Assembly: GCA_947184155.2 (NCBI GenBank)
Contig: CAMXCT020001482.1
Location: 86,006-150,005, forward strand
Origin: Cladocopium goreaui
Taxonomy: Eukaryota > Sar > Dinophyceae > Suessiales > Symbiodiniaceae
Length of the DNA: 64,000 nucleotides
Direction: 5' to 3'
Made by a program: the position numbers and the translations under genes. The stretch's first letter is position 1, and the number at the start of each line of letters is the position of its first letter. Shown here in pieces: positions 4,741 through 61,005 of this stretch. The notes beneath the pieces are model-generated. The model saw nothing but the letters and a program-made list of their open reading frames with translations. It was not told the origin of the DNA and ran no database searches.

Positions 4741-5086
4741 GTATATATTTAAAATGATGTATGTATGTCTATTTAACATTTATGTTCTGGGATGATGCCT
4801 TGTGATTGATATTTTGGGAAGAAACATATACTGTATATAGATGATTAAGGCAGTGATGATTTACAGTACAAGGACTGGAGAAAAGAAGCAAACATACATG
4901 GTTGATCTTGAGTGAAGCACAGAAGACAAGGCCAAGGCAATAATAGATCCGATGTTGACATTATGAACCATCCAGATTGACCTTTATGATGACATGACAT
5001 ATATATATATATATGCTAACCCCCCCCCTGATACCTACTTTTTACTGTTAATTCCTTCCTTTCTTCGTAACTACATCTGTGCTGGC

Positions 5087-5718
5087 AGCAAGTCATTTGC
5101 AAGAACCATGTGGGTTACATGCTTGAGGGAGCGTGGGTTCAAAAGGATGAAGCTATGAAGGCTTTGCACAAAGTGCTGCGTTACAAGTTCTCACTTGGGC
5201 AAACTACAGCAAGTACTTTGCACGAATCACGGTTACATGCTTGAGGGAGGGCGGGTTCAAAAGGATGAAGCTATGAAGGCTTTGCACAAAGTGCTGCGTT
5301 ATAATTTCTCACGCGGGCAAACTACAGCAAGTACTTTGCACGAACCACGTGGTTCACGTGCCTGAGGGAGGGTGGGTTCAAAAGGATGAAGCTATGAAGG
5401 CTCTGCACAAAGTGCTGCGTTACAAGTTCTCACTTGGGCAAACTACAGCAAGTACTTTGCACGAATCACGGTCACATGCTTGAGGGAGGGTGGGTTCAAA
5501 AGGATGAAGCTATGAAGGCTTTGCACAAAGTGCTGTGTTACAAGTTCTCACTTGGGCAAACTACAGCAAGTACTTTGCACGAACCACGTGGTGCACGTGC
5601 TTGAGGGAGGGTGGGTTCAAAAGGATGAAGCTATGAAGGCTTTGCACAAAGTGCTGCGTTACAAGTTCTCACTTGGGCAAACTACAGCAAGTACTTTGCA
5701 CGAATCACGGTTACATGC
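5087..5718. repeat. tandem satellite, alternating 118/121-bp units
   Basis: Just over five units containing the word GGGCAAACTACAGCAAGTAC at about 5196, 5314, 5434, 5553 and 5673. Spacing alternates between 118 and 121 bp because two versions of the linker (CACGAATCACGG and CACGAACCACGTGG) alternate. Unit lengths are not multiples of three, so the open frames inside are incidental. Confidence 0.85.
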
Positions 5719-5719
5719 T

Positions 5720-39000: not shown

Positions 39001-39149
39001 TATATATATATTATATATATATATATTATATATACAAAACACGCCGACACGCACATACATATAACAATATTTACTCTGCATATATAGATAGAGCGGTTGC
39101 GGTTTATTTATATGTAATGATTATACTGTATATACATATACTTTGCTTG

Positions 39150-39176
39150 GATCAGCTGTGGCCTTACTAGTAGGTT
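39150..39176 (+). repeat. left terminal inverted repeat, 27 bp
   Basis: Starts GATCAGCTGTGG and ends TAGTAGGTT; exact reverse complement of 52013-52039. Followed inward by GGTTAACATGGTTAAGATGG and TTAGCTAAG subterminal repeats. Confidence 0.92.
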
Positions 39177-39226
39177 AACATGGTTAAGATGGTTAGCTAA
39201 GTATTTAGCTAAGGGTGCTAAGTATG

Positions 39227-39424
39227 CTAACTGTTTGTTTTCTGCATTAAGCAATTGCATTTCAAAATGTAACCCTGCTGGCAAAAAAATGAAAAGATAA
39301 AGGATTGTTTCTGGATTCTTTGGAAATGTTTGGCTATTTTTTCTTGATGCGAAGAAACAAATTCATGGCAATCAGTGTTTGGGCATCTCTTTGGATGCTT
39401 GCTGGCCAGGCATGCTTTTGACAT
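39227..39424 (-). CDS. possible 3' exon of the element
   Basis: Open minus frame with a CPNTDC motif and HFQRIQKQSFIFSFFCQQG, ending in a stop. The ORF's first residues come from the spacer repeat, so only the later part could be coding. No confirmed splice site. Confidence 0.25.
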   Translation of the reverse strand: MSKACLASKHPKRCPNTDCHEFVSSHQEKIAKHFQRIQKQSFIFSFFCQQGYILKCNCLMQKTNS

Positions 39425-39665
39425 TTAATAACAGCAGTGTGCTGAGCCATGCAAGGCTTGCAGAAACAAAAGCAGCCATGAGAGGCTTAGCATCATTGAA
39501 GCCATGGAAGGCTTGCATGTCAGGTAGCCATCAAGGCTTGCACACATGTGCTGAGCCATGCCAGGCTTGCCAGAAAAAAAGAGCCATAAGAGGCTTATCA
39601 TCATTGAAGCCATGGAAGGCTTGCATGCTAGGCAGCCATCATGAAAGGCTTGCATCTTGCAGCCA
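39420..39665. repeat. AGCC-N-GGCTTGCA spacer repeats, block 1
   Basis: About eight copies of AGCCATGNAAGGCTTGCA in 240 bp. The AGCC and GGCT arms can pair. Confidence 0.9.
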
Positions 39666-39708
39666 AATGCTTTGCCCTCCCCCAGGCTGCAAGCTTGTTT
39701 TGGGCACT

Positions 39709-41766
39709 TCACCGCAGATGGTATGGGACCAGGGTCATCAATCCAGCCCTGGTTCTTGTATATGTGACAGAACACAAGATGTCTTTGGCTGGCAAAATGC
39801 AGATGCCTGCATGTTCTGTCCAATTGGCATTCCCCAAGCATGGGTCATATGTCAGAAGACTGAGTTGATCAGCCAAAGCGAAAGCACATTGTGAAAAGCT
39901 GAAATTGACCAAAATCTGGGCTGCATCCCATTTGTTCAAGGCATTGATGAGGACCACATCTCCTTGAGCTGCCAGATTTCCAGAAGACAGCACCAGGTTC
40001 TTACTGATAAAGATGTCATTGCTGGTAATTCCAAGGTGCTCTTTCAAAAATTCCTTCAACTTGCAAGGTGCTTTGGATTCTTTTTCCAATGCATTCAGAA
40101 GCTTCTGGTTCGACTCTAAGTTGTGGAGCTGCTGGGAAAGAATCTCTGTATACAAGCTGTCCTCAAAAAACTTCAAATTTTGGATCCTGGTTGCCATGGC
40201 AGTCACCTCCTTATGCTTTCTCTCCATTGTCCAAGCTGGCAAGAGCATATTGTGGCACTCCAAGGAATCACCATAATGCAAATTCCAATGAAATTTCCTG
40301 ATACAGAATTGGCCCCATTTGGCAACTTTGAAAAAATGCAAAGTTTCTTCAGCACATTTGTCTAACTGCTGTCCTGACACCACACCATGCTGTGTAGCCA
40401 GGAGGAGATCCATCATCTCACAAAGCTTCAAAAAGGCAGTTGTCTCTGGGCCACCAGCACCTTGCTTTTCCATTTTCTGGACATAATGTTGAACAATGGG
40501 GTAAACGCACAAAATCTCACTGGCAGGAATCTTGACTTTGAAAGCTTTTCTGTAAGAATCCACTTTGGCAGTTGCAAACAATGAAGGCAAATTGCAGACT
40601 TTCTTGAAGGCAGCAGGCAATGTCCATAGGCTGCAATAAGTGCCCATGTTTTTCCAAGACTGCAAGCCCATTGTGTTGAGGTGCTCCAAAACTAGGTAAA
40701 TACCAATATTGAGACATCCATTGGAGCACATACCATGCATGTAGTCATGATGGAATTGTGAGATGGGCTTTAGCCATGGCCTCAAGGCAGCAGAGCTCAA
40801 GATTCCTTGGGTAGAAAAATTCCACCCAGTAGCTTGCTGCCAATCTTGGAATTCTGCTGGTGAGCAACTTGATCTTCTTGCTGCTGATCGATCAAAAGAA
40901 TTCAGTGCATCATTGTCAGTGGCCAGCACCAAATCCTTTTTGCTTATTGCTCTGATAACAGCATTGTCAGGGTCATCATCCTGCTCAGTCAAAAAAACAA
41001 TTTGATTGCAGCATTTCAAGCAGTAATTGCTACCTGCATCTCCTTTCAAGCCAAAAGTGATTTTTTGGCTGGCTCCATCTTGAACAAAGAAGCCAAGCTG
41101 GTAGTGAACTCTGAACTTTTGGCCTGCTGGCCCATGCAATACCAAACCAATCTCTGGTGGTGTTTCAATCGACACAAATATCATCTCCATGATGACCCTC
41201 ATGACTTGGCCCATGTGGCCTTCCAATGTTGCCACTATGGAACTCCTGCAAATGAAGAGAGGCAACCAATGTTGAGTTTGGGATATGGCATGCCTTCCAA
41301 TTTCTTTGAAAGTGCCATACACTACCCAAACTTTTTTGGCAGCTTTGCCTAAAGCATTGGCTGGCAAACATTCATCGCTGTAAAGGATCAAATTCCACAT
41401 CATGTTTGGTGATGAAGGCTGTGCAGTGAGCCCTGCAGCCATGCATTGAAAGAAGCTGCCCCCCAGCTTGAAGCTGGCATGCAAAAGGCTTTGAAAATTC
41501 ACCACTTGCAACTGAATACTTGTTCCATCAGTTTTGAAGAATTCATGTGACACTAAGAGGCTGCCATAGGTGAAGAACTGGGCCAAATGCTGCTTAGCAG
41601 CTTCAGTCATTTGCTTTGGATTGTTCAGCTCAGGCACACCATGCTTTTCAATATCTTTCAAAATGCCATGCAGGCTTGCTTTGCTACAATTCGGAATTGA
41701 TCTTCTCAAGTTGTTGAGTCTCTGAAGCTTGGCAGGCCTTTCTGCAAATTCATCTACTTTTCCCAT
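39709..41766 (-). CDS. 685-aa transposase-like protein
   Basis: Single uninterrupted ORF with a true ATG at 41766. Candidate catalytic and metal residues lie in the order expected of a DDE/D transposase with an inserted zinc knuckle: D131 in YSDECLPANAL, D230 and D243 in VQDGAS and KGDAGSNYCLKCC (C249, C252, C253), D341 with H344 in FHHDYMHGMCSNGCLN, and E515 in WTMERKHKE. The order and spacing recall CACTA/Plavaka-type transposases (SDE..., CxxC, DxxH, ERxH), but this is remote and from memory. It lies nearest the left TIR. Nothing suggests it is broken. Alternative: another dinoflagellate-specific nuclease or integrase. Confidence 0.72.
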   Translation of the reverse strand: MGKVDEFAERPAKLQRLNNLRRSIPNCSKASLHGILKDIEKHGVPELNNPKQMTEAAKQHLAQFFTYGSLLVSHEFFKTDGTSIQLQVVNFQSLLHASFKLGGSFFQCMAAGLTAQPSSPNMMWNLILYSDECLPANALGKAAKKVWVVYGTFKEIGRHAISQTQHWLPLFICRSSIVATLEGHMGQVMRVIMEMIFVSIETPPEIGLVLHGPAGQKFRVHYQLGFFVQDGASQKITFGLKGDAGSNYCLKCCNQIVFLTEQDDDPDNAVIRAISKKDLVLATDNDALNSFDRSAARRSSCSPAEFQDWQQATGWNFSTQGILSSAALRPWLKPISQFHHDYMHGMCSNGCLNIGIYLVLEHLNTMGLQSWKNMGTYCSLWTLPAAFKKVCNLPSLFATAKVDSYRKAFKVKIPASEILCVYPIVQHYVQKMEKQGAGGPETTAFLKLCEMMDLLLATQHGVVSGQQLDKCAEETLHFFKVAKWGQFCIRKFHWNLHYGDSLECHNMLLPAWTMERKHKEVTAMATRIQNLKFFEDSLYTEILSQQLHNLESNQKLLNALEKESKAPCKLKEFLKEHLGITSNDIFISKNLVLSSGNLAAQGDVVLINALNKWDAAQILVNFSFSQCAFALADQLSLLTYDPCLGNANWTEHAGICILPAKDILCSVTYTRTRAGLMTLVPYHLR

Positions 41767-42004
41767 ATTCCCAAGTCAAAAAGCAAGCCAGGACATGGCA
41801 GCAAACAATGACTCAATCAAGAACTGTTCTTGTAAATGAATAGTGGCAGGTTGCAAAAGAGTTGGGCCACAAAACATGTGAATAGTGGAAAGGTAGAAAT
41901 GTCTGCTTGCTGGGAAGCTGTATGTATACATTGTCAGTGAAGTGCTTGGCCCAAAAGGCAGGACACATGTTTTCCATGAGCTGAATGGCAGGCAATGAAA
42001 TATT

Positions 42005-42290
42005 TCAACCAGAAGCCAGTGCAGGCTTGACACACATTGCAGGCTTGACACCCAGAAGCCATGCAAGGCTTATTGGTGAAGCAGCCATGGCAGGCTTGCC
42101 AAACTTCAGAAAGCTATTAAAGCTTGCAAGTGCACACCTACATTAGCCATGCAAGGCTTGTTGGGAAAGCAGCCATGGCAGGCTTGCCAAACTTGAGAAA
42201 GCTATCAAAGCTTGCAAATGCAGAGCTACATGTGTCAGCCATGTCAGGCTTGAAGCAAGAACAGAGCCATAAAGGCTTGAAACAGAGTGA
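42005..42290. repeat. spacer repeats, block 2
   Basis: About ten AGCCATGCAAGGCTTG-type copies between the 685-aa and 450-aa genes. A short minus frame at 41813-41995 is not convincingly coding. Confidence 0.9.
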
Positions 42291-42455
42291 GGCCCAGCTT
42301 CCTTATCCTTTTTCCATTTTCCTGCCACAGACTTGAACTCCAAGATTGGTTCCTGAGTTTTCCCAAGAAGCACAGCATCCAATGTTTCTCATTGAATTTG
42401 TGCAAACCCCAAAAAAAGAAACACAAAGCTGCTGCTTCAAAGCAGCTTGCAGCAC

Positions 42456-43808
42456 CTACTTCTTGCCAGTGGCTTCAGCCCAGTCCTTCCATTCTTCCCT
42501 TGAGTAGAACTTTCTACCTTGAAAGGTAGGTTTGGAGCAGGATGCACAACCCCTCACATTTCCCCTGCAAGAGCTACACCCCCAGCCTTGAACTTTCTTC
42601 TTGGCTGGTTTGCCTTTCTTGGAAGCACTGCTGCTGGCTTTGGCAACTGGCTTCACTTGGGAAGGGGCAGCAGCTGGCCTTTTCATCCCTTTGCCAGCAG
42701 CCCTTCTGCTTGCCAACTTCTTGTAAGCTTCATCCTCGAAATCTTCCAAGCTAGCTGTGCCCAAATGTGTTTCCACAGGCACCAGAGCATGGGGAAGTTT
42801 TTCTGCCACACTTCCACACTCAGCAGCATGGCAGCCTCCATCCACAGAAGGAAGTTGCTCAGAAGCTCTGCCATTGGAGACTGGTTGGCTGCCTTGCAAG
42901 CCTGTAGCTGGAGGCCTGCCAACAGAGCCACCCAAGTGGCTCCTTTTCTCAGCAAGTTGGTTTGCGGTTTCTCTGTCACACCACTTCTCCATGAACTGCT
43001 CCATCTTCTCCAGCAAGCCATATCCTTGGTCAGCTACAGGAACTGGTTCTGAAGCAGGAGGCTTCTTCTTGCTAGCCTTTGCCTTGGGCTCCTCTTTGAG
43101 CAACTTATTTGTATCCCTCAAAGAAATTGCATGGTGCAAGTAGCTTAAGGACAGCTCTTGCATGGCTGGTTTCTCAGTGCCATAGGCCTTCTCCAGGAAA
43201 GTAGGGGACAGCTGGCTAGGAGACATTGGGTATGTCTTCAAGCCAGACACTTGGCATCCTGCAGAAGAAGTGGAAGCAAAAACACTCACCAAGTCAGTCA
43301 CCATGTAGTAGACAGCCCAGTTGCTTGGAAGTGGCTGCTTCTGCACAGTGGGTTTCACATGCAGGAGCAAAGCTATGACACACTTCTTGGTGTCTTCCTT
43401 CATACTCTTAATGCCCAATGCTTTCAACCTTTCACACAACACCCTCATGCCATCCAAGAAGGACTGTGAAGCATTGATCTTTTCCCAGTCAGCCAAAGTG
43501 AGGTAGGGAGGCAAATTGGTAAGGCTTTGGGCCTTCATCTGCAACTGCAAGTTGCTTTCTTGTGACACAGACAGGGCATCCATGACCTGCATGATCTCTT
43601 CTTTCAACTTCTGAGGAAGAGCAGCTGCTTTGACTTTGGCATAGAGCTCTGTCAGGCCAGAGGCAGTCCATCCAGGAACCCCTTGAAGCCTTTGCTTCAA
43701 AGCTCCCAAGGCAGAATGGCCAACAACAGAGTTAGGTCTTTCTGCCAAAAGGTTAGCCACATGCTCCAGTTCTGAGCAAAAATCTTCATTGGACCATTGA
43801 TGGCTCAT
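42456..43808 (-). CDS. 450-aa protein with WGCSxCR...GCxxC tail
   Basis: The first ATG of the open frame is at 43808. The N-terminal half is helical (LAERPNSVVGHSALGALKQR, LADWEKINASQSFLDGMRVL). The middle is a lysine/alanine/proline-rich linker (KGMKRPAAAPSQVKPVAKAS). The C-terminus is WGCSSCRGNVRGCASCSKPT, then FQGRKFYSREEW, a likely zinc-binding module of four cysteines. I recall this tail from many dinoflagellate repeat-family proteins. It is probably the DNA-binding or accessory partner of the transposase, encoded immediately upstream in the same orientation. Confidence 0.7.
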   Translation of the reverse strand: MSHQWSNEDFCSELEHVANLLAERPNSVVGHSALGALKQRLQGVPGWTASGLTELYAKVKAAALPQKLKEEIMQVMDALSVSQESNLQLQMKAQSLTNLPPYLTLADWEKINASQSFLDGMRVLCERLKALGIKSMKEDTKKCVIALLLHVKPTVQKQPLPSNWAVYYMVTDLVSVFASTSSAGCQVSGLKTYPMSPSQLSPTFLEKAYGTEKPAMQELSLSYLHHAISLRDTNKLLKEEPKAKASKKKPPASEPVPVADQGYGLLEKMEQFMEKWCDRETANQLAEKRSHLGGSVGRPPATGLQGSQPVSNGRASEQLPSVDGGCHAAECGSVAEKLPHALVPVETHLGTASLEDFEDEAYKKLASRRAAGKGMKRPAAAPSQVKPVAKASSSASKKGKPAKKKVQGWGCSSCRGNVRGCASCSKPTFQGRKFYSREEWKDWAEATGKK

Positions 43809-43904
43809 GTTGGCCACCAATGAAGAAAAAGGTGACTACAGCTTGAGTTTGGCAAATGCTACCAGAAACTTATTTTTGAAGCAATGCAGTGCTGTAAGAA
43901 CTTT

Positions 43905-44195
43905 ATGGCAAGCATGCAAGATGGCAGCCAGTAAGGCTTGAATATGATTTGGCCACAATCAGACCTGAAGCATGAATAGCCATCAAGGCTTGCATGTGGA
44001 ACAATGGCTGTACAGAAGATTGTTGTCTAGCCATAAAGGCTTGCCACACAAAGCCAGTGAGACTTACAATACATAGCAATGCAGGCTTGCAAGCACAAAG
44101 TGGCCATGAAAGACCTGCATAAAAGCCACAAAGGCTTACAAATGCTGAACAGCCATAAAGGCTTGCAAGAAAAGCCACAAGGGCTTGAAATTCTG
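43905..44195. repeat. spacer repeats, block 3
   Basis: About eight copies between the 450-aa gene and the split gene at 44.3-45.1 kb. Confidence 0.9.
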
Positions 44196-44285
44196 ACATG
44201 TCCATGGTGATATTTTTTTCTCTCAGGGCAAAGCTGGAAGATCCAAGTCTCATACCATGGAAGGCAGCCAGATCACATCCAAGGA

Positions 44286-44379
44286 TCAGTAGTACTTCCT
44301 GTACTTGTCAAAGCCATTGGTTCTCATCTCCCCATCATGGATGGTGTAGATTTCCTGGAAGGTCCTGTTCTTCATGAAC
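44286..44379 (-). CDS. terminal exon of an accessory gene
   Basis: Minus-strand acceptor CTGATTCCACCACAG|G followed by FMKNRTFQEIYTIHDGEMRT, NGFDKYRKYY and TGA. Too short to be found as a long ORF. It continues the exon at 44487-44685 through an intron whose donor is not certain (GC or GA type). Confidence 0.55.
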
Positions 44380-44486
44380 CTGTGGTGGAATCAGAAATCA
44401 CCATGGGCCAAATCATTTGGAACACTTTCATCCAGTTTTAAATACATTTGCTTTTCTTTAGGTAGTGTTAAAAAAATACATAAGTA

Positions 44487-44685
44487 TCATCCAAGGTGCG
44501 CATCCACTAGCTTGTCGCACTTTTCCCAATCCTTCTCCTTGTAAGCCCTGGCAAGGACCACAGCCTTATTGATGCCACCAGACCTGTGCTGCTTATCTGT
44601 TTTCACCTGCAAGTGTTCATAGTGCTTCTTCTCCTCAGCACTCATGGGTTCCTCTATGAGCTTGAAGCAGCTGTCCTCAACACAT
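44487..44685 (-). CDS. internal exon of the accessory gene
   Basis: After the minus-strand acceptor CCACTCCACACCCAG the frame reads CVEDSCFKLIEEPMSAEEKK, HYEHLQVKTDKQHRSGGINK, AVVLARAYKEKDWEKCDKLV and DAHLG, then TGA. Very coding-like, highly charged. The upstream 165-codon frame is different, so a splice (or frameshift) is needed to join them. Confidence 0.58.
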
Positions 44686-44699
44686 CTGGGTGTGGAGTG

Positions 44700-45068
44700 G
44701 TAGGTGGTGGTAGTGGTGGAAGTTTCTCTGGCTCTGGCACTTTCTGCATGTTCATCCTCCAGGGTAGTTCTGAAGATTTCCTTTTTTTGTGAACAGGATC
44801 AGGAAGTTTCCTTCTCTTTTTTTCCTTAGCCTCCAAGTTCTCACCCTTGATGTTCTTGGACTCCAGCTTGTCCTTCTTGTCTTCCTTGGAGACCACCTCT
44901 GATTCATGCAGTGGTGACTGCAGGATACTCTTCAAGGCTGAAAAGTTCTGGTCCTCATTCTCTTCTTCCACCATTTCATAGTCGCATTGTTCTGAATCTC
45001 CAAGGACTTCCACTGGTTGAGCAAGTTCATGATCACTGGCCTGGGTGTCTGAATCTGCATCATCATGT
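44700..45068 (-). CDS. 5' exon of the accessory gene
   Basis: Acidic then basic low-complexity protein (DDADSDTQASDHELAQPVEV; EDKKDKLESKNIKGENLEAK; KKRRKLPDPVHKKRK with a possible nuclear signal). The open frame begins further upstream inside spacer repeats (to 45151), which is probably intronic. An AG acceptor sits just before HQRTHDD. The C-terminal proline run may be the intron's pyrimidine tract. Confidence 0.5.
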
Positions 45069-45358
45069 GTCCTTTGATGTTGGAAAAGCCATTGAAGGCT
45101 TGCAAAAAAACATGAAGTTATGACCACAGTGAATGCCATAGAGGCATGCAATGCTGATTTGATAAAGCCTCATGGGCTTGGGAAAAGAAAAGCATGACAA
45201 TAAACATACCACCCAAGAGGCTCTTCATCCTTCACAGTCTTGTAGCCCAGCAAACTCCATGCCAAACCAGGAACTGCAAAACATCCTTCTTCATCATCCA
45301 TGGCTCTGAGTTGGCTGATCAATTGCGAAATCCTAAATTCTGCAAGATCATTATCAAA

Positions 45359-45632
45359 AAGTTAGATTCATCTGATGAACCTAAAATTTAGTACCTAGAT
45401 TTTAGGTTCATCTGATGAACCTAAAATTTCATATCTAGATTTTAGGTTCATCTGATGAACCTAAAATTCAATATCTAGATTTTAGGTTCATCTGATGAAC
45501 CTAAAATTGAAAATATATGATTTAGGTTTATCTGATGAACCTAAAATTGTAAATATATGATTTAGGTTTATCTGATGAACCTAAAATTGTAAATCTAATA
45601 TTTAGGTTTATCTGATGAACCTAAGACCTAAT
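45359..45632. repeat. seven-copy 40-bp palindromic minisatellite
   Basis: The word TCTGATGAAC recurs at 45371, 45411, 45451, 45491, 45531, 45571 and 45611, exactly every 40 bp. Each unit carries the palindrome AGGTTCATCTGATGAACCT (or AGGTTTATC...). Lies inside the element between accessory genes. Confidence 0.95.
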
Positions 45633-45959
45633 ACTTGTTGTATTGATTTTTTTTGCTAAATTTGATTGTTTTTGAAATACCATGAGTGTTTCATTCTGAA
45701 ATATTAATATATGCTTTAAGATAATATAATATGAATTGATAATATATATGTATATACATACATGTATGGCTAATTCATATATATGCCCATGAGTATTTAT
45801 TATTCTTGTGAAAACATAACATAACATATATGTATGATTGATGTGGCAACCTTCACAGTTAGTTGAATGATCATTGACCCTTTGGGTACTGGTTGATCTT
45901 GATCCACACACAAACATCAAAGTGATTATACAATCTTTCAAAACTACATGAAGATTGAA

Positions 45960-46395
45960 CCCATGTTTGATGGCCATGACAAACCTGAATAAACATGACC
46001 ATTGAAGGCCTGCACAAGAACTAGCCACAAGGGCTTGCATACAGATGGCCAGTAAAGACCTGCATCAAACTAGCCACAATGGGCTTGCAAAGCAAGTGCT
46101 TGCATGTGAATGTTTCAAATTTAAATGCAAATATCTAGCCACCATGGGCTTGCACAGCTACAGGAGCTTGCATATGGATGGTCAGGAATGACCTGCAGAA
46201 GTTTAGCCACAAAGGGCTTCAAAAGCAACATGTGCTTGCAAAAGAATGCTAGCCACATTGGGCTTGAAGAGCATCAAGTGCTTGCAACTGCATAGTCATG
46301 ACAGACCTGCAGAAATCTAGCCACTATGGGCTTGCACAGACACAACCCAAATGAGCTTGAAGCAAGATAGCCAGGATGGCTTGCAAAAGTCAAAC
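45960..46395. repeat. spacer repeats, block 4
   Basis: About a dozen diverged copies (AGCCACAAGGGCTTGCA and GGCCAGTAAAGACCTGCA types). Confidence 0.85.
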
Positions 46396-46625
46396 TTTGC
46401 AAACGTGACAATATAGATATGTTGTCATTCAAATTTGTATTCCTGCATCATAGGTACATCCTTAGCAATCTATATTGTTTGGTTCCATGCAATCTCCAAC
46501 AAAACAATTATCATGCAAGTCAATTTGAAACATTTCATAGAGAACTTGACATGCAATGGCCACAAGGGACCTTCTCAAGCCAAGCCTGCACTTTTTTTAA
46601 AGCTGCTGCATTGGATCTGGGATGT

Positions 46626-46847
46626 TTATGGCAAAGTTGGCCCCACTACAGTGTCCATGATGACATCTACCTGTGTTTTCATCACAGTGTTCTTCTCCCT
46701 GATCTCTGCCACCACCAGCATGATCTCCTGCAGCTGCTGATATATCATGTGCAAGGCTTTGAGTAGATCCTTGAGGACCATCAAGCACAGCAGCAGCAAA
46801 AGGCACAGAGTCCAGCATGACATCACAAGAAGGAATTGCCACACCAT
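46626..46847 (-). CDS. possible small membrane/coiled-coil exon
   Basis: Minus frame with a hydrophobic start (FLLVMSCWTLCLLLLLCLMV) and a heptad-like helix (LLKALHMIYQQLQEIMLVVA; EIREKNTVMKTQVDVIMD). A GTAGAT donor follows MKTQ. A second minus frame is also open, so this is tentative. Confidence 0.4.
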   Translation of the reverse strand: MVWQFLLVMSCWTLCLLLLLCLMVLKDLLKALHMIYQQLQEIMLVVAEIREKNTVMKTQVDVIMDTVVGPTLP

Positions 46848-47581
46848 CTTCTATTTAGCTTGCCAGAGCCAAAACTACCACAAATAATGAAGCTGGGCAT
46901 CACCTTAGAAGGAAAGCAAGCTTTTGTGATATAGCCACATTGGGCTTGACCATATGAGCCATAGTAGGCTTGCAACAAGTGCAAAAGCATGGTGGCCACT
47001 TGGGGCCTGAGAGGCAAGTATCAGCTACAGTGAGCTTGCTTACAGGAAAAGCCATGAAAGACTTATAATGGCCACCATGGGCTTGATGTCTGCTTGGCTT
47101 CCTTTTATCACTATTCTTTTAAAACATGCAGTTTAGATTTAATTGCTTGTGGTTGCATCCTGCTTGGCAAGATAGCAGTACCCAGACTCAGCACATATGA
47201 ATACAGAAATTTGATGACTGCTGTCAGTGATGACCATGGTATTAACATTGAATCACACACAAACAGCTACCTTACATAAAAAATAAGCCCACATCAATAG
47301 GAAATAATCTAAACTGGTGGCAAGAAACCAGTGCTTGTGCAACATGCTCCATGCCAGCTTAATTCACAAAGTGACAATTACAGCATTTGAAGCCCAGAAG
47401 CCACACAAGGCTTGCAAAAAGTCAGAGCCATGACAAGGCTTCCTTGTGTCAAAGCCATGCAAGGCTTGCAGGAGGCTGCTGAAGCAAACTTTTTTTGGTG
47501 CCCTTGTGTCAGCAGCTCTGGTTTGACATCAGCAATGCCAAGGCTTCACTTGCCAATGGCTGCAAGCATGCCATGACCACA

Positions 47582-48100
47582 TCACTTCTTTTTGTAGGCT
47601 TTGGGGGTTGCACCCAAGCAAGAGTCAATGTCTTCCTCCAAAAACCTGACCACAGCTGTCAATTGCTCAGGCACAAGCTGGATCAGCAAGTCTGACTTGG
47701 AAGGCCTCTTTCCACTCACCATGCAAATGATCTTCTCATTGAGCACTTCAAATTCCACCAAGTAGGAGCCAGCAGGAACTTTTCTTTTCTTTTGGCTTTC
47801 AGAATTTGCACTTTCTGCCTGAAAAAGGTCTTCCTTCTCTTCTCCTTCTGCATCTTCATCTGGCAAATCAAGCTTGGCTGCAGCTTCATTCCTGAGCTGC
47901 AAAAGTTCCTGCAGCTTGGCACTTGTAGTCAAACCAGCATTCTTCTTGTACTTGTCTTTCATGACCAGCTGACAGATCATTGGGAAAGTTGGCCTGAACC
48001 TCAAGAAAGATTTCTCTTCAAAGGTCTCCTCCAAAGAATGTGGCACATTGAGCCATTTGTCGCCATTTTTGATAGCCCAAGAAGATCTCACATCCACCAT
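47582..48100 (-). CDS. 172-aa accessory protein
   Basis: True ATG at 48100, single exon. N-terminal MVDVRSSWAIKNGDKWLNVP, middle acidic stretch (LPDEDAEGEEKEDLFQAE), C-terminal KRKVPAGSYLVEFEVLNEKI, VSGKRPSKSDLLIQLVPEQL and AYKKK. Flanked on both sides by spacer repeats (47.39-47.47 and 48.2-48.37 kb). No family known to me; I believe similar small proteins occur in dinoflagellate repeats, but that is memory only. Confidence 0.6.
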   Translation of the reverse strand: MVDVRSSWAIKNGDKWLNVPHSLEETFEEKSFLRFRPTFPMICQLVMKDKYKKNAGLTTSAKLQELLQLRNEAAAKLDLPDEDAEGEEKEDLFQAESANSESQKKRKVPAGSYLVEFEVLNEKIICMVSGKRPSKSDLLIQLVPEQLTAVVRFLEEDIDSCLGATPKAYKKK

Positions 48101-48199
48101 GTGAAGGTAGGGCTAAGTTGTGGTGTCACACTTCTGCTTTGGGCCAAACTCCTCAATTGCAAAGCCTTTCCATGGTGCAAACACAAGGCAAAGAAGCAA

Positions 48200-48370
48200 T
48201 CAAAAAGCCATGCAGGCTTACAAGCATAACAAGCCATGAAGGCTTGCACAAAGAAGGCTACCAGCCATGAAGGCTTGCACACAGAAGGCTACCAGCCAGT
48301 TACAAAGGCTTGCACACCCACCAGCCATGACAGCTTGCACCCTACAGGAGCCACAAGAAAGGCTTGGCAA
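48200..48370. repeat. spacer repeats, block 5
   Basis: About seven copies, two of them near-identical (AGCCATGAAGGCTTGCACA then AAGAAGGCTACC). Confidence 0.9.
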
Positions 48371-48472
48371 TGAAGATCTTCATGGGAGACAGCTGTTTTG
48401 CATGCTGCAGAAATGAGTACTCCTCTGCAGTGTGACACCTATACCCTTGCTATTGCAGTAGCAACCAAAAGT

Positions 48473-49165
48473 TCAGCTTTCAGTCTTGGCCTTCTTCTTG
48501 GGCTGAATCTCTTTCTTTCCATTGTCAGTGAGCAATTTGTCATGAGTAGCCACAGGAGAGCTGTTTGTCAAGATAGGGATCTTGCAAGCATCAACCACAA
48601 TCTCACTGGCAGACATGTTGCCATCTTCACCTTGCCCAGCTGCCTTTACCCACCAAAATGGTGACAGGACACCATCATCTTTGCTGAAATCACTCAATGC
48701 CTTGTAAGGCTGCACTTGCCAATCATGACCAAATGCCTTGATGTAGATCTTGTCCTTAACAGGCTCACCTTTGAGCTTGGAGACAGTTCCACAAGGCACA
48801 AACTTCAGTGCACCTTTCTTCATTTTCTGCAAGGACCAAACATGGTTGGGGTGGTTGGTGAAAGCGACCTGGTCAGCAGTCACAGCATGGTCCATGCATG
48901 CTTGCAGCAAAGCCTTCTGAACATGGCTCCTCTGCATGTCTGCTTGCACCAAAGGATTATGCTGTGGCACATGTTGGTCCTGCTTTGCTCCTTCACATTT
49001 TTCAGGAGGGTGCATTTTGGTCAGCTTCCACAACTTGAGCTGGTCAAATGGCACATGCACTTCTTCTTTGGGATGAAACAAAGGCTGATGCACCATGATG
49101 CAAGCTGTCTGTGTGCAAGAGATGTGCTGGAATATCTTGTGGCCATGGTCTTTGGCATTGAGATA
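48473..49165 (-). CDS. 3' exon of a second split accessory gene
   Basis: Begins at a minus-strand acceptor (GTACTATTGCCAG|G); reads YLNAKDHGHKIFQHISCTQT, HQPLFHPKEEVHVPFDQLKL ... and a basic tail EIQPKKKAKTES then stop. The 246-codon frame extends 5' of the acceptor but that part is likely intron. No recognised domain. Confidence 0.58.
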   Translation of the reverse strand, partial: YLNAKDHGHKIFQHISCTQTACIMVHQPLFHPKEEVHVPFDQLKLWKLTKMHPPEKCEGAKQDQHVPQHNPLVQADMQRSHVQKALLQACMDHAVTADQVAFTNHPNHVWSLQKMKKGALKFVPCGTVSKLKGEPVKDKIYIKAFGHDWQVQPYKALSDFSKDDGVLSPFWWVKAAGQGEDGNMSASEIVVDACKIPILTNSSPVATHDKLLTDNGKKEIQPKKKAKTES

Positions 49166-49249
49166 CCTGGCAATAGTACCAATGTGAAGCTTCAAAAGAA
49201 ACTTTGCAAACAATCCAAAAGAAACTCATTCAAAAGGCTTCAAAAAATC

Positions 49250-49620
49250 ACACCAAGATGCATCTCATTGACTTTGATGTGTTTGTTTTGCAGAAGGGCC
49301 AACTCAGCTTTGCTGGCAGACAACACATTGCTCACCTGGATGTCAGTGCTAGAAGGAGAGACTGCAGCTTGCACCTGTGCCATGCCTTGCAAGTCTTCTG
49401 TAAACTTTCCAGCAATCTCCTGCAAATCTTCAAATCCATCTGGCTCTCTGCCTGCTTTCTCTTTGTTGAGAACATGCAGGCAAACCCTGACACACAGTCG
49501 ACCAAAGGCACCAACAGTCTGGCTTTCAGTAGCTTTGGAAGCCACATATAAAGCCCAAGCATCTTGAAGAACTTGCCTCAGATGCTGGCTTCCACAAGTG
49601 CCAAAAAAGAAATTGACTTT
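49250..49620 (-). CDS. middle exon of the second split gene
   Basis: Open minus frame FFGTCGSQHLRQVLQDAWAL, SQTVGAFGRLCVRVCLHVLN, GREPDGFEDLQEIAGKFTED, ending near KHIKVNEMHLG at a GTGTGA-type donor. It has no ATG start; an acceptor after CACCTTGCAAAG fits. The phase to the 3' exon was not resolved. Confidence 0.52.
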
Positions 49621-49656
49621 GCAAGGTGGAATCAAGTCAAAAATTGCTAATGTATC

Positions 49657-49775
49657 CTGGCCAGCTGCTCTGCTTCAAGCACCTTCTGCCTCATTGCAAG
49701 GCTTTTGACTCTTTCTGTGTCGCCTCTGACCAAAATCTTGGAGACACCATCCACAGCTTTCTGTGAAGACATCAT
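49657..49775 (-). CDS. first exon of the second split gene
   Basis: ATG at 49775; reads MMSSQKAVDGVSKILVRGDT then ERVKSLAMRQKVLEAEQLA. Helical. It ends near a GA donor (GGCCAG|GATACA) just before an in-frame TAG. Not visible as a long ORF. Confidence 0.52.
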
Positions 49776-50311
49776 TGTTGCCCACCTCAGATGCAAAGGA
49801 AGAAGGCAGTGGCTTGAGGAAGGGTTGCACAGCCACAGAGAGCTTGAAACAACCAGAACAGAAGGTAGCCATCAAGGCTTGGCAAGGCTACAACAAGAAC
49901 CTGCATGATTAACTAGCCACAAAGGCTTGAATCTGTAGGCAACAGCAACCAACCAACAGGCAGCCATAGAGGCTTGAACTTGCATGGGCACAAAGCCTTT
50001 GCAACTAAAAGTCAGCCATGCAGGCTTGAAAGAACCACTTGATGCTGCCAAGAGGCATGGAAGCTCTCAAGAAAGGTAGCACATGATCACCACCCTTCAG
50101 CTCAAAATAGGTGATAGCTTTCATCATCTCTTCACCCACCATGACAGTGCCATAGGTCTTGCCTAAGGTCTCTAGCTATGTGGTGCCCATTGCCATCTTT
50201 GAAAGGGCAGGATAAACACTCAAGCTGTTAACACCACAGTCAAGACATTGAAGGTAATATGAGTGCTATGAATGCACCTTCCAAAATGCACTTCACACAC
50301 CAAATTTTGAA

Positions 50312-51161
50312 TCAAGCTGAGAAACCGAATTTGGAGAGGAAATTGATGATTGGACAATCCATGCCACCACCAAACTTGCCCACATAGTGAGCAATGCAAT
50401 CCAAGCTAGGCTTGCAAGCTGGGTCACATGCTTTCAAAATATCCAAAGAGTTCTTGAGCTGTTGCCCATGCTTCAGGCCTTGGGCCAGCTGTGCAGCACA
50501 TTCCACTTCAGAGAGCTGCTTGGAGTTGCTGTTGGTGCTGTTCAAAGCAAGTTGCAGCCAGCTGGGCAAGTCTTTCCACTCTGATTCCACTGAAGCTGAC
50601 AGCACACACCAAGACCATCCCTGGCTTAGCAGCTCCAGAATGCTATTTGACCTCTCCTCTCCTTGCCTGAGCTGAAGCACATGCTGAGGTCCAGGTCCTT
50701 GGCATCCTGCTTCCAATGCTTTCAGCCAAGCAGTTGTATGAGAACTGCTTACACTCAAGAACCTCTCCTTGCAAGTGACAGGGGCCAGTAAGGATGGAGT
50801 CTGCTCAACCAAAGCCTTGTTGGCTGCCAGCTGCATTTCTCTGGCTTGAGGTTCTAAGGCCATCTCAAAGGCAAAGGAATCTGTAAGCAGCTCTTTCCTC
50901 ACACCCACATTCCACATTCTCAAGCCCTTGCTCCAGCAGTCTACACTGCTCAGCATCTGCCCAGATCTATTCTGGGGATGCACAAGAACATCGCATGGTT
51001 TCAGCTCTGTCCTGTAAGCCAGCCCACATTCCAAAAGCACACTGGTGAGCTTTTGCACCTTGACAAGCACAGGGTCAACACTTTTAAGCACCCCATTCAC
51101 TTCTTTCTTCACTTCTTCTGAAATGGCAGCCATTGCTACCTTTTGCGTTTGGGCCAAGCAC
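50312..51161 (-). CDS. accessory protein of about 280 aa at the 5' end of the gene array
   Basis: The open frame reaches an ATG at 51190. An AG|G acceptor (GCACTTGCAG) and a second Met (VAMAAISEEVKKEVNGVLKS) suggest a start near 51161 or just downstream. Mostly helical, with cysteines near the C-terminus (LKACDPACKPSLDCIAHYVG) and a stop after FLSKFGFSA. Unrecognised. First gene from the right TIR. Confidence 0.55.
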
Positions 51162-51214
51162 CTGCAAGTGCACAGCATAACCAAAGCCATCAATGAGGAG
51201 GTGCAAGATCCAAA

Positions 51215-51440
51215 GAGCCATGGAAGGCTTGGTCAAAACAGCCATTATGGCTTGCATCAATTAGCCATGACAATCTTGCATGGAAATCAAGAAGCCATGG
51301 ATAGGCTTGAAACACCACAGAGCTGGACAGCTTGCATGGGCTTACAACCACAGCCATGGAGGCTTGCAAGCACAGCTATGAAGGCTTGCAAGAACAGCTA
51401 TGAAAGCTTACACAGCAGCAGCCATTGTCAGGCTTGATCA
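51215..51440. repeat. spacer repeats, block 6
   Basis: About eight copies next to the rightmost gene, for example AGCCATGGAGGCTTGCAAGC. Confidence 0.9.
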
Positions 51441-51819
51441 AGCAGTTCCAGAAGCAGTTTTTTGCAGCTTCTTTGATTGTTTTATTCCACATTTCATTGC
51501 CAAGATGATTTTGGGCTTTGCTCAATTTTTGGCAAGTCATAGCAAACACTGCTGTTAGCAGGTCACAATTGAAATCTTAACCACAATGGTCCAATGCTGG
51601 GGACAAGCTATCAGCACCCCACATGGAAAACACATGGCAAACCATGCTCTGATTGCCTGAACATGTTCTTGGCTCATGGTGAATTTGAAAAAATGTTCAT
51701 TGGTATATCTGGCATATATTTTTTTGAAAAGTTGTTTTTTCTGCATTGAAACACAATTTTCTTTAGAGCAGATTGCATCCAGAAATGTGTTTGCTGGAGC
51801 TTAAAATGATCATTGCTAG

Positions 51820-52012
51820 ACCATGAAGTTAAGCCATCTAACTTGCCTAAACCTTTACAACTTTTAAGATAGTTAGGTTTGCACTAGCTAAAAATTATAA
51901 AGTTTAGCTAACCTGCCTAAACCTACTAAAAGGTTACTACATAGTTACAACAGATTTAAGACAGTGTTGTCACATACTTAGAATAGTATTAGCTAAAGCA
52001 CATAACCCTATC
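51820..52012. repeat. right subterminal repeats
   Basis: Several short words (GCCTAAACC, TTTAGCTAA, GGTTACTAC) recur and mirror TTAGCTAAG words inside the left TIR, as subterminal transposase-binding repeats of class II elements often do. Confidence 0.6.
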
Positions 52013-52039
52013 AACCTACTAGTAAGGCCACAGCTGATC
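52013..52039 (-). repeat. right terminal inverted repeat, 27 bp
   Basis: AACCTACTAGTAAGG...CAGCTGATC; exact reverse complement of the left TIR. Confidence 0.92.
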
Positions 52040-52156
52040 ATAGTAAGGATTACTCCCTGACTTTTTAAAGTTCAAGTTGGCTGAAGCACTTAAAATTACA
52101 TCAAGCGAACTTATGCTACTTATGTTATAAGTAGAAATTAGTAGAATTAAGTTAGT

Positions 52157-59077: not shown

Positions 59078-59210
59078 TTCCACTTTTTCCGGAGCCCCTC
59101 AAACAAGTGATGCGGAAATACCCGCGGAAATAGGAACCTTGGAGGAAGCGGACGCTCAGCCTTTGAACATGATAGACCTTCCTAACCTTGTGTCACCCCA
59201 TATCCAATAG
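59078..59210 (+). CDS. putative exon, new frame after a MITE fragment
   Basis: Open as STFSGAPQTSDAEIPAEIGT, LEEADAQPLNMIDLPNLVSP and TAG, acidic. It begins at GATAG, the remains of a family D element, so a decayed introner between this and the previous exon is possible. Confidence 0.42.
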
Positions 59211-59569: not shown

Positions 59570-60560
59570 TTACTGGCAAATCTTCTGGCATTCTATCTGA
59601 CATATCTTCTGGCATTCTATCTGACATATCTTCTGGCATTCTATCTGACATTCCATCTGGCATATCTTCTGGCATATCTTCTGGCATTCTATCTGGCATA
59701 TCTTCTGGCATTCTATCTGACATATCTTCTGGCATTCTATCTGGCATATCTTCTGGCATTTCTTCTGGCATTCTATCTGGCAAATCTTCTGGCATTCTAT
59801 CTGGCATATCTTCTGGCATTCTATCTGACATATCTTCTGGCATTCTATCTGGCATATCTTCTGGAATATATTCTGACATATCTTCTGGCATTCTATCTGA
59901 CATATCTTCTGGCATATATTCTGACATATCTTCTGGCATATCTTCTGACATATCTTCTGGCAAATCTTCTGGCATTCTATCTGGCATATCTTCTGGCATT
60001 CTATCTGACATATCTTCTGGCATTCTATCTGGCATTCTATCTGGCATATCTTCTGGCATATCTTCTGGCAATATGTTCTGGCATAGCTTCGCATATCTTC
60101 TGGCATTCTATCTGCAAATCTTCCTCTGCACTTTCGATCTGGCATATATAATTTCTGGCATTCTTCTGGCCTATCTTCCTGGCTAAATCCTTCAATCTTC
60201 TATCTCTGTATCTTTCTGAAACCTTTTACCATTTCCATGGCATTCTATCTGACGCATATTTGTCCTGACATCTAATCTGACATATCTTCTTCTGTCTTAA
60301 TTCTTTTCTGAAAAAATTCGTTCTGCTTTCTCTTTTCTATATCTGCTGTGTCTCTGGCAACTCGTCGTTGCCTTCTGACATTTTTTCTGGCATTCTATCT
60401 GGCATATCTTCTGACATTCTATCTGACATATCTTCTGACATTCTTTCTGGCATATCTTCTGACATTCTGTCTGGCATATCTTCTGACATTCTTCCTGACA
60501 TTCTTTCTGGCATTCTATCTGGCATATCTTCTGACATTCTATCTGACATCTTTTCTGACA
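59570..60560. repeat. 12-bp TCTTCTGGCATN/TCTATCTGACAT satellite
   Basis: About a kilobase of 12-bp units, decayed in the middle (60070-60370) and regular again to 60560. Because 12 is a multiple of three, long frames are open on both strands (SSGILSDI repeats on plus, MPEDMPDR on minus). These are treated as artefacts. Confidence 0.92.
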
Positions 60561-60566
60561 TTCTTC

Positions 60567-61005
60567 CCGTTGAGGTCCGGCAGTGCCCACTGCGATCTGG
60601 AAGTCGCGGTTGAGGTCCGGCAGTGCCCACTGCGATCTGGAAGTCGCGGTTGAGGTCCGGCAGTGCCCACTGCGACCTGGAAGTCGCGGTTGAGGTCCGG
60701 CAGTGCCCACTGGGATCTGGAGCTCACGGTTGAGGTCCGGCAGTGCCCACTGGGATCTGGAGCTCGCGGTTGAGGTCCGGCAGTGCCCACTGCGACCTGG
60801 AAGTCGCAGTTGAGGTCCGGCAGTGCCCACTGCGATCTGCAACTCGCGGTTGAGGTCCGGCAGTGCCCACTGGGATCTGGAGCTCGCGGTTGAGGTCCGG
60901 CAGTGCCCACTGGGATCTCGAGCTCGCGGTGGAGGTCCGGCAGTGCCCACTGGGATCTCGAGCTCGCGGTGGAGGTCCGGCTGTTGCCCACTGGGATCTG
61001 GACTG
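60567..61005. repeat. 40-bp minisatellite, 11 copies
   Basis: TTGAGGTCCGGCAGTGCCCA recurs every 40 bp eleven times with GCGATCTGGAAGTCGC/GGGATCTGGAGCTCGC variants. It ends in GGA/GAG triplets (61010-61065). Minus frames reading GTAGPQPR.. and HCRTSTAS.. cycle through the unit. Abuts the 12-bp satellite. Confidence 0.95.

Follow-up and report, generated by a model that had tools for sequence, protein, structure and literature searches.

The Element and Its Genes

The window analyzed here is a stretch of 64,000 nucleotides from the dinoflagellate Cladocopium goreaui (assembly GCA_947184155.2, contig CAMXCT020001482.1, positions 86,006 to 150,005 of the forward strand). It contains a multi-gene element of 12.9 kb at 39146..52043, read on the minus strand, with the 5′ end, distal to the transposase gene, at 52043 and the 3′, transposase-proximal end at 39146, as set by comparison of copies. 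Very probably the element belongs to a large family of autonomous cut-and-paste DNA transposons that is apparently undescribed and acts by the mechanism proposed below.

The gene nearest the 3′ end (39709..41766, minus strand) encodes a protein of 685 amino acids (aa), the likely transposase, with a RAG1/Transib-like predicted fold and a C-terminal BAH-like domain at about residues 556–680. Also on the minus strand are coding segments for a 454-aa accessory protein (42456..43820; conserved Met at about 43808) with a C-terminal Cys-rich segment (GCxxCRGNxxGCxxC), one or more acidic/proline-rich segments (44490..45151; two overlapping frames, 44490–44798 and 44654–45151), a 172-aa accessory protein (47582..48100), a 246-aa segment (48473..49213), a 131-aa segment (49240..49635), which may be one exon of the p1 gene region, a small internal exon (GKTYG...PFLR; 50046..50163) and the 293-aa accessory protein p1 (50312..51193; conserved Met at 51133), which showed a weak ParB/sulfiredoxin-like predicted fold. 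The p1 and 454-aa genes were followed genome-wide; for the remaining accessory genes the comparison was with a single relative, the copy on contig C6042, where the 172-, 246- and 131-aa products are 40%, 48% and 43% identical, respectively, the small exon is conserved and the acidic/proline-rich segment is weakly conserved.

The original prediction, made from the sequence alone, counted at least seven minus-strand coding units; at least seven minus-strand open reading frames (ORFs) are present, but some of these units resemble exons of one gene. Pfam and PHROG searches of seven ORFs gave nothing usable, the p1 model (predicted local distance difference test score 76.4) had no Foldseek match at E ≤ 1e−3, and an Rfam scan of 39100–52100 gave 0 matches at the gathering score.

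Termini, Copies and Insertion Sites

The inverted repeats at 39150–39176 and 52013–52039 are nested in a 58-nucleotide pair that is 81% complementary. The true ends, CTTGG...CCAAG, lie four bases outside these 27-bp terminal inverted repeats (TIRs), with the left CTTGG at 39146: the match of the copy on contig C4668 begins at 39146, and the divergence of the relatives' close copies sets in after CCAAG. The 3′ terminus in gene sense (39146..39200) consists of the TIR CTTGGATCAGCTGTGGCCTTACTAGTAGG and the first TTAGC subterminal repeats. The 5′ terminus (51989..52043) carries the TIR, with CTATG instead of CTTGG as its outermost five bases; CTTGG was found in 9 of the 11 5′ ends printed, and CTATG in C4668 and the window. 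Repeats of TTAGC/GCTAA gather at the element ends (11 in 500 bp), compared with 0.32 per 250 bp in the interior and 0.22 in the left flank.

The left-end 151 bases were found at six places in the 1.17-Gb genome, as left ends in the window, C589 and C4668 and as right ends (51 bases) in C4668, C1482 (the window) and C1655, so the ends recur and the TIR is not a single occurrence genome-wide. At C1655:99613 an isolated 5′ end (111 bp, 99%) belonging to the same subfamily as the window's element had no element body in the 20 kb examined and represents a truncated copy or an end fragment. Searching the genome with the transposase gave 69 matches at 100% to 29% identity, from which four second fragments were removed to leave 65 loci, the best-scored of 756 candidates. 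Many copies have open transposase frames, and near-identical copies exist. Relatives with both ends measured 14.4–15.4 kb (C6042, C4376, C743, C3180 and C176), except for that on C2741 (21.8 kb). The copy on C4668 (270145–283014) showed signs of decay, namely one stop in the transposase match, one in the p1 match and the altered terminus.

A 2-bp target-site duplication (TSD) of variable sequence was present in six of the seven copies with both ends read, the flanking dinucleotides being TG/TG in C6042 and C4376, AA/AA in C743, TA/TA in C3180, CA/CA in C589 and, presuming that CTATG is its altered terminus, TA/TA in C4668. This count leaves out C176, whose 5′ end was missed by the pattern, and the window, because it is a probable chimera (see below). 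The chance of the six matches alone is about 6e−8, a figure that the one miss, C2741 (AA/CA), weakens slightly. The 5′ flank of the C2741 copy (15274–37063) is the same as the C743 flank over the 25 bases shown, whereas its 3′ flanking dinucleotide, CA, differs from that of C743 and equals the one at the C3725 5′ end; this copy may be a second assembly chimera, or else a nested insertion.

Counterparts of the empty site were found for three insertions. The C743 copy is inserted in a 79-bp tandem array, and three units of its 3′ flank run uninterrupted through the target (GAGACCCAAGGGACG, compared with GAGACCCAA-element-AAGGGACG). At C3180 the neighboring unit reads CACTTTTACCTCAG, compared with CACTTTTA-element-TACCTCAG. 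The joined flanks of C6042 matched C1071:138144–138303 over all 160 bases with two mismatches and a gapless junction, and four more places matched bases 1–107 of the joined flanks at 78%, spanning the junction. These empty sites indicate precise insertion with a 2-bp duplication. The C6042 insertion (3′ flank of locus L019) lies in coding-like sequence with a CCHC-type knuckle, YKCLRCGGSHKTSQC, uninterrupted at C1071:138144, which we take from its resemblance to be perhaps a retroelement.

Homologous ends, 2-bp TSDs and three empty sites, for which the original prediction had proposed a search, were thus all found, neither of the outcomes named there as refuting was obtained, and there is good support for assigning the element to a family of mobile multi-gene DNA transposons. 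The suggestion of an undescribed giant DNA transposon is borne out by the full copies, and no description of the family was found in the parts of the open literature covered (PMC12730594, PMC9860276, PMC9087856, PMC8101967, PMC12704722, PMC8110479, PMC8045281), with preprints and Repbase outside this coverage.

A Probable Assembly Chimera at the Right End

The window is nearly identical to C589 (99.9% across 21.7 kb), the match stopping at the right end of the element, and about 98% identical to C4668 within the element, the right flank being common to the window and C4668. Three-way comparison of 46001–52043 placed the window with C589 as far as 51811 and with C4668 from 51931. Up to 51811, 83 sites (gap columns included) were common to the window and C589 alone, versus 2 shared with C4668; from 51931, the window agreed with C4668 at all five substitutions inside the originally predicted borders, and beyond. 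Divided into 500-bp bins, the right flank showed 100% identity to C4668 in each bin as far as window position 59207, the extent of C4668 sequence compared, except around 53.5–54.5 kb. In C589 the right end is CCAAG, with one mismatch within the 27 bp and flanks CA/CA, and in C4668 it is CTATG with flanks TA/TA; the window has CTATG with unequal flanking dinucleotides (TA/CA).

On these alignments the simplest reading makes the window contig a probable assembly chimera with a switch point at 51811..51931, allele A (C589) to the left and allele B (C4668) to the right. The right end and right flank of the window would then belong to the other copy, and TA/CA flanks are expected. A true third copy, produced by ectopic recombination or gene conversion between the two parents, is considered unlikely: the switch does fall in homologous sequence, but the window and its 150,005-base contig end together and C589 begins within the shared stretch, and both the 99.9% identity of the 21.7-kb overlap and the 100% identity of the right flank to C4668 for more than 5 kb speak for the artifact. 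As to the perfect 27-bp TIRs described originally, inverted repeats are present, but the termini are four bases farther out and the perfection comes from the left end of A being joined to the right end of B. Such elements can fuse unrelated contigs in assemblies.

The Transposase and Its Relationships

The predicted fold of the 685-aa protein (AlphaFold2 model; Foldseek and VIA-align) matched best RAG1, the recombinase of vertebrate antibody genes, over about 460 residues, and then Transib, over about 420. Its motif residues are D131, D230, C249-x2-C252, H493-x3-H497 and E515, the C(2)C and H(3-4)H motifs lying between D230 and E515. This is the arrangement reported for the clade of CACTA, Mirage, Chapaev, Transib (CMCT), Plavaka, ESTA and Lanisha, with C(2)C and H(3-4)H between the second D and the last E, a TSD of 2 to 5 bp and termini that are mostly 5′-CA..TG-3′, according to the part of the source covered (PMC12730594). 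The TSD of the element, 2 bp in six of seven copies and at the empty sites, falls within that range. Membership of the transposase in the RAG1-fold group, with an RNase H-type DDE core, is supported by predicted structure and motifs, and the element is read here as a new lineage of the CMCT-RAG1 group.

In a set of 5.8 billion proteins the transposase had 27 matches at E ≤ 1e−3, none with a precomputed Pfam domain. Both organism-named homologues among them are from Symbiodinium sp. CCMP2592, which lends indirect support to the dinoflagellate origin proposed earlier. The Pfam family Plavaka (PF18759) was matched by 1 of the 27 relatives with E 0.076, below the cut-off; ten relatives were rescanned with no Plavaka match. 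Searches against PDB sequences gave nothing usable.

The element shares with RAG1, ProtoRAG and Transib the predicted fold and the residue order D, D, C(2)C, H-x3/4-H, E, but differs in having no detectable sequence similarity to them, a BAH-like C-terminal domain, a 2-bp TSD and CTTGG ends; unlike in RAG systems, no kelch/RAG2-like protein was recognized by Pfam among the seven ORFs. Transib and RAG transposons have a 5-bp TSD, compared with 2 bp here. CACTA/EnSpm elements resemble it in having TIRs, subterminal repeats and a gene for an accessory DNA-binding protein. They differ in their CAC..GTG ends and 3-bp TSD (PMC12730594, in the part covered), and the element has at least six conserved coding segments. 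Plavaka, a fungal CMCT lineage, is similar in the C(2)C/H(3-4)H motifs and, for PlavakaA, the 2-bp TSD, but its ends are described in the same portion of that source as TGT..ACA or CATCA..TGATG (PMC12730594). Since ends or TSD differ, it would be wrong to class the element as CACTA, Transib or Plavaka. The introners of Symbiodinium microadriaticum are likewise TIR-bearing DNA elements, but the example given in the portion covered is about 115 bp long with a 4-bp TSD (PMC9860276).

A Conserved Gene Cassette

Upstream of the transposase and on the same strand, the p1 gene was found at 57 of the 65 loci and the 454-aa gene at 58, in the recurrent one-strand order p1 ... 454-aa gene ... transposase. 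Second fragments among the p1 (139) and 454-aa (107) matches were left out by hand from these counts, and as the 65 loci are the best-scored ones the cassette was tested on the closer part of the family. Among the eight loci without p1, three (C3788, C3651 and C863) begin less than 9.3 kb from the contig start. Such conservation of order and strand indicates a fixed cassette, not random cargo, and the p1 and 454-aa genes look like part of the element's own machinery, contrary to the earlier suggestion of cargo genes.

It is very improbable that this is a CACTA/EnSpm element swollen by captured host genes. The C(2)C and H(3-4)H motifs are common to CACTA transposases (PMC12730594, as far as covered) and subterminal repeats are present, but the ends are CTTGG and not CAC, the TSD is 2 bp and not 3, and recurrence of the two accessory genes is unlike cargo. 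The earlier contrast with CACTA elements accordingly stands as regards the number of genes and the ends (CTTGG, 2-bp TSD); on its predicted structure, however, the transposase belongs within the wider CACTA/Transib/RAG1 fold group.

The size of 13–15 kb and the many genes on one strand would also suit an endogenous virus, Polinton-like or other, whose extra genes served virion formation or replication, and Polinton-like viruses are reported from protists, including one dinoflagellate, in the parts of the literature covered. Polintons and Polinton-like viruses carry PolB, capsid, ATPase or integrase genes. This identity is nevertheless extremely unlikely: no DNA polymerase, capsid, ATPase or integrase family was found above Pfam cut-offs in the seven ORFs, and no informative PHROG match, although divergent proteins could escape both searches; the transposase had no match at E ≤ 1e−3 in the viral fold library (two element proteins were folded); and the fold is of transposase type and the TSD 2 bp.

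Interior Palindromes

Oriented palindromes of the form TGCA-AGCC-N5/6-GGCT (sense strand; 39439..51420, minus strand) occupy most of the non-coding interior of the element and are few in coding DNA. Their clusters lie at about 39.4–39.7, 42.0–42.3, 43.9–44.2, 45.1–45.2, 46.0–46.4, 46.9–47.5, 48.2–48.4, 49.8–50.1 and 51.2–51.4 kb, with none within 250 bp of either end, where the TTAGC/GCTAA repeats gather. The form AGCC-N4-6-GGCTTG occurred 37 times on the element's + strand, once on the minus strand and nowhere in the other 51 kb of the window. A change of composition and repeats at the borders had been noted originally; the repeats do change sharply, but the shift in G + C is modest (0.41–0.50 per 1-kb bin inside, with one bin at 0.33, and mostly 0.31–0.46 on the left side). 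The loop was 5 or 6 bases in 43 of 49 AAGCC...GGCT cases, counting loops of up to 11. Hairpins of 5 bp of any sequence were in moderate excess in non-coding DNA (60 versus 33 ± 7 shuffled in the element, 57 versus 38 ± 5 in C6042); the analysis was centered on the AAGCC motif because this is their commonest arm.

A 40-bp palindromic tandem repeat (45362..45624, 6.6 copies) has self-complementary units distinct from the AGCC palindromes. Large tandem arrays, some open in several frames, also lie outside the element at 5086–5719 (118-bp units), 59573–60114 (24-bp) and 60569–61002 (40-bp).

The AGCC palindrome motif was present in relatives at 72% and 54–57% identity, nearly always in the same orientation, with one reversed copy in the window element and one each in loci L023, L024 and L025. 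Several relatives near 31% identity retained the AGCC/GGCT arms with different flanks, and beside transposases of about 31% identity 77 AGCC arms were counted versus 0–22 for 11 control arms (17 loci, some near-identical). The exact form TGCAAGCCTTNATGGCT had 31 matches in the genome and its reversed control none. All 31 fell on contigs where the transposase, p1 or an end of the family was also matched, placement being by contig for C553, C1129 and C5438, of which C1129 and C5438 are tied to the family by p1 matches only; one, on C1129, was on the strand opposite to its contig's p1 match.

Arms other than AGCC following TGCA paired in 15 of 70 cases in this element versus 3 of 91 antisense (p 6e−4), and pairing may, on these counts, be under selection; against the coding sense the difference was weaker (7 of 80, p 0.04), and in C6042 it was not significant (6 of 76 versus 3 of 94, p 0.30). 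The palindromes could instead be neutral, short hairpin units spread by local duplication and owing their one orientation to descent from one ancestral array. Tandem duplications with 31-, 54-, 88- and 108-bp units include palindromes, the first intron of the p1 region has them in C6042 and not in this element, and the C6042 result agrees with neutrality, which is accordingly a serious possibility, if the less probable one. It does not readily account for clusters in nine separate non-coding stretches when coding DNA has few palindromes and the terminal 250 bp none, for palindromes also between the coding segments of C6042 (57% in transposase), for arms varying together in this element, or for AGCC arms still enriched beside transposases of about 31% identity.

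Proposed Mechanism and Significance

In the proposed mechanism the RAG1/Transib/CACTA-like DDE transposase would bind the TIRs and subterminal TTAGC repeats, excise the element and join it to the target with a 2-bp stagger, while the BAH-like domain may steer the enzyme to chromatin or hold it there. The 454-aa Cys-rich protein and the p1 gene region would supply DNA-binding or complex-forming helpers. The interior palindromes most likely work on the transcribed strand, as RNA hairpins in introns, untranslated regions and spacers; alternatively, they may be binding sites for an element-encoded protein.

Several points weigh against this interpretation. Sequence searches matched the transposase to none of RAG1, Transib and CACTA, the link being predicted fold and motif order; the termini are CTTGG..CCAAG instead of the CMCT-type CA..TG; C2741 is without a matching TSD; the covariation is weaker against the coding sense and not significant in C6042; and no transposition, expression or cleavage was observed.

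A bolder reading, and a distinctly unlikely one, is that of a new superfamily of giant eukaryotic transposons in which a RAG1-fold, BAH-tipped transposase is combined with dozens of palindromic sites along the element and with a ParB-like protein that would load at these sites to coat, cluster or partition the element DNA. If true, this would be a plasmid-like maintenance system within a eukaryotic transposon.

As for the transposon family itself, a number of dinoflagellate proteins that had no name can now be identified through it, and the fold group in which RAG1 originated gains another lineage, one that is rich in genes, is represented by near-identical copies and occurs in organisms distant from animals. 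Direct tests are possible both of the BAH-tipped transposase, in cells whose chromatin is unusual, and of the palindromes, one exact form of which turned up in the 1.17-Gb genome solely on contigs of this family.

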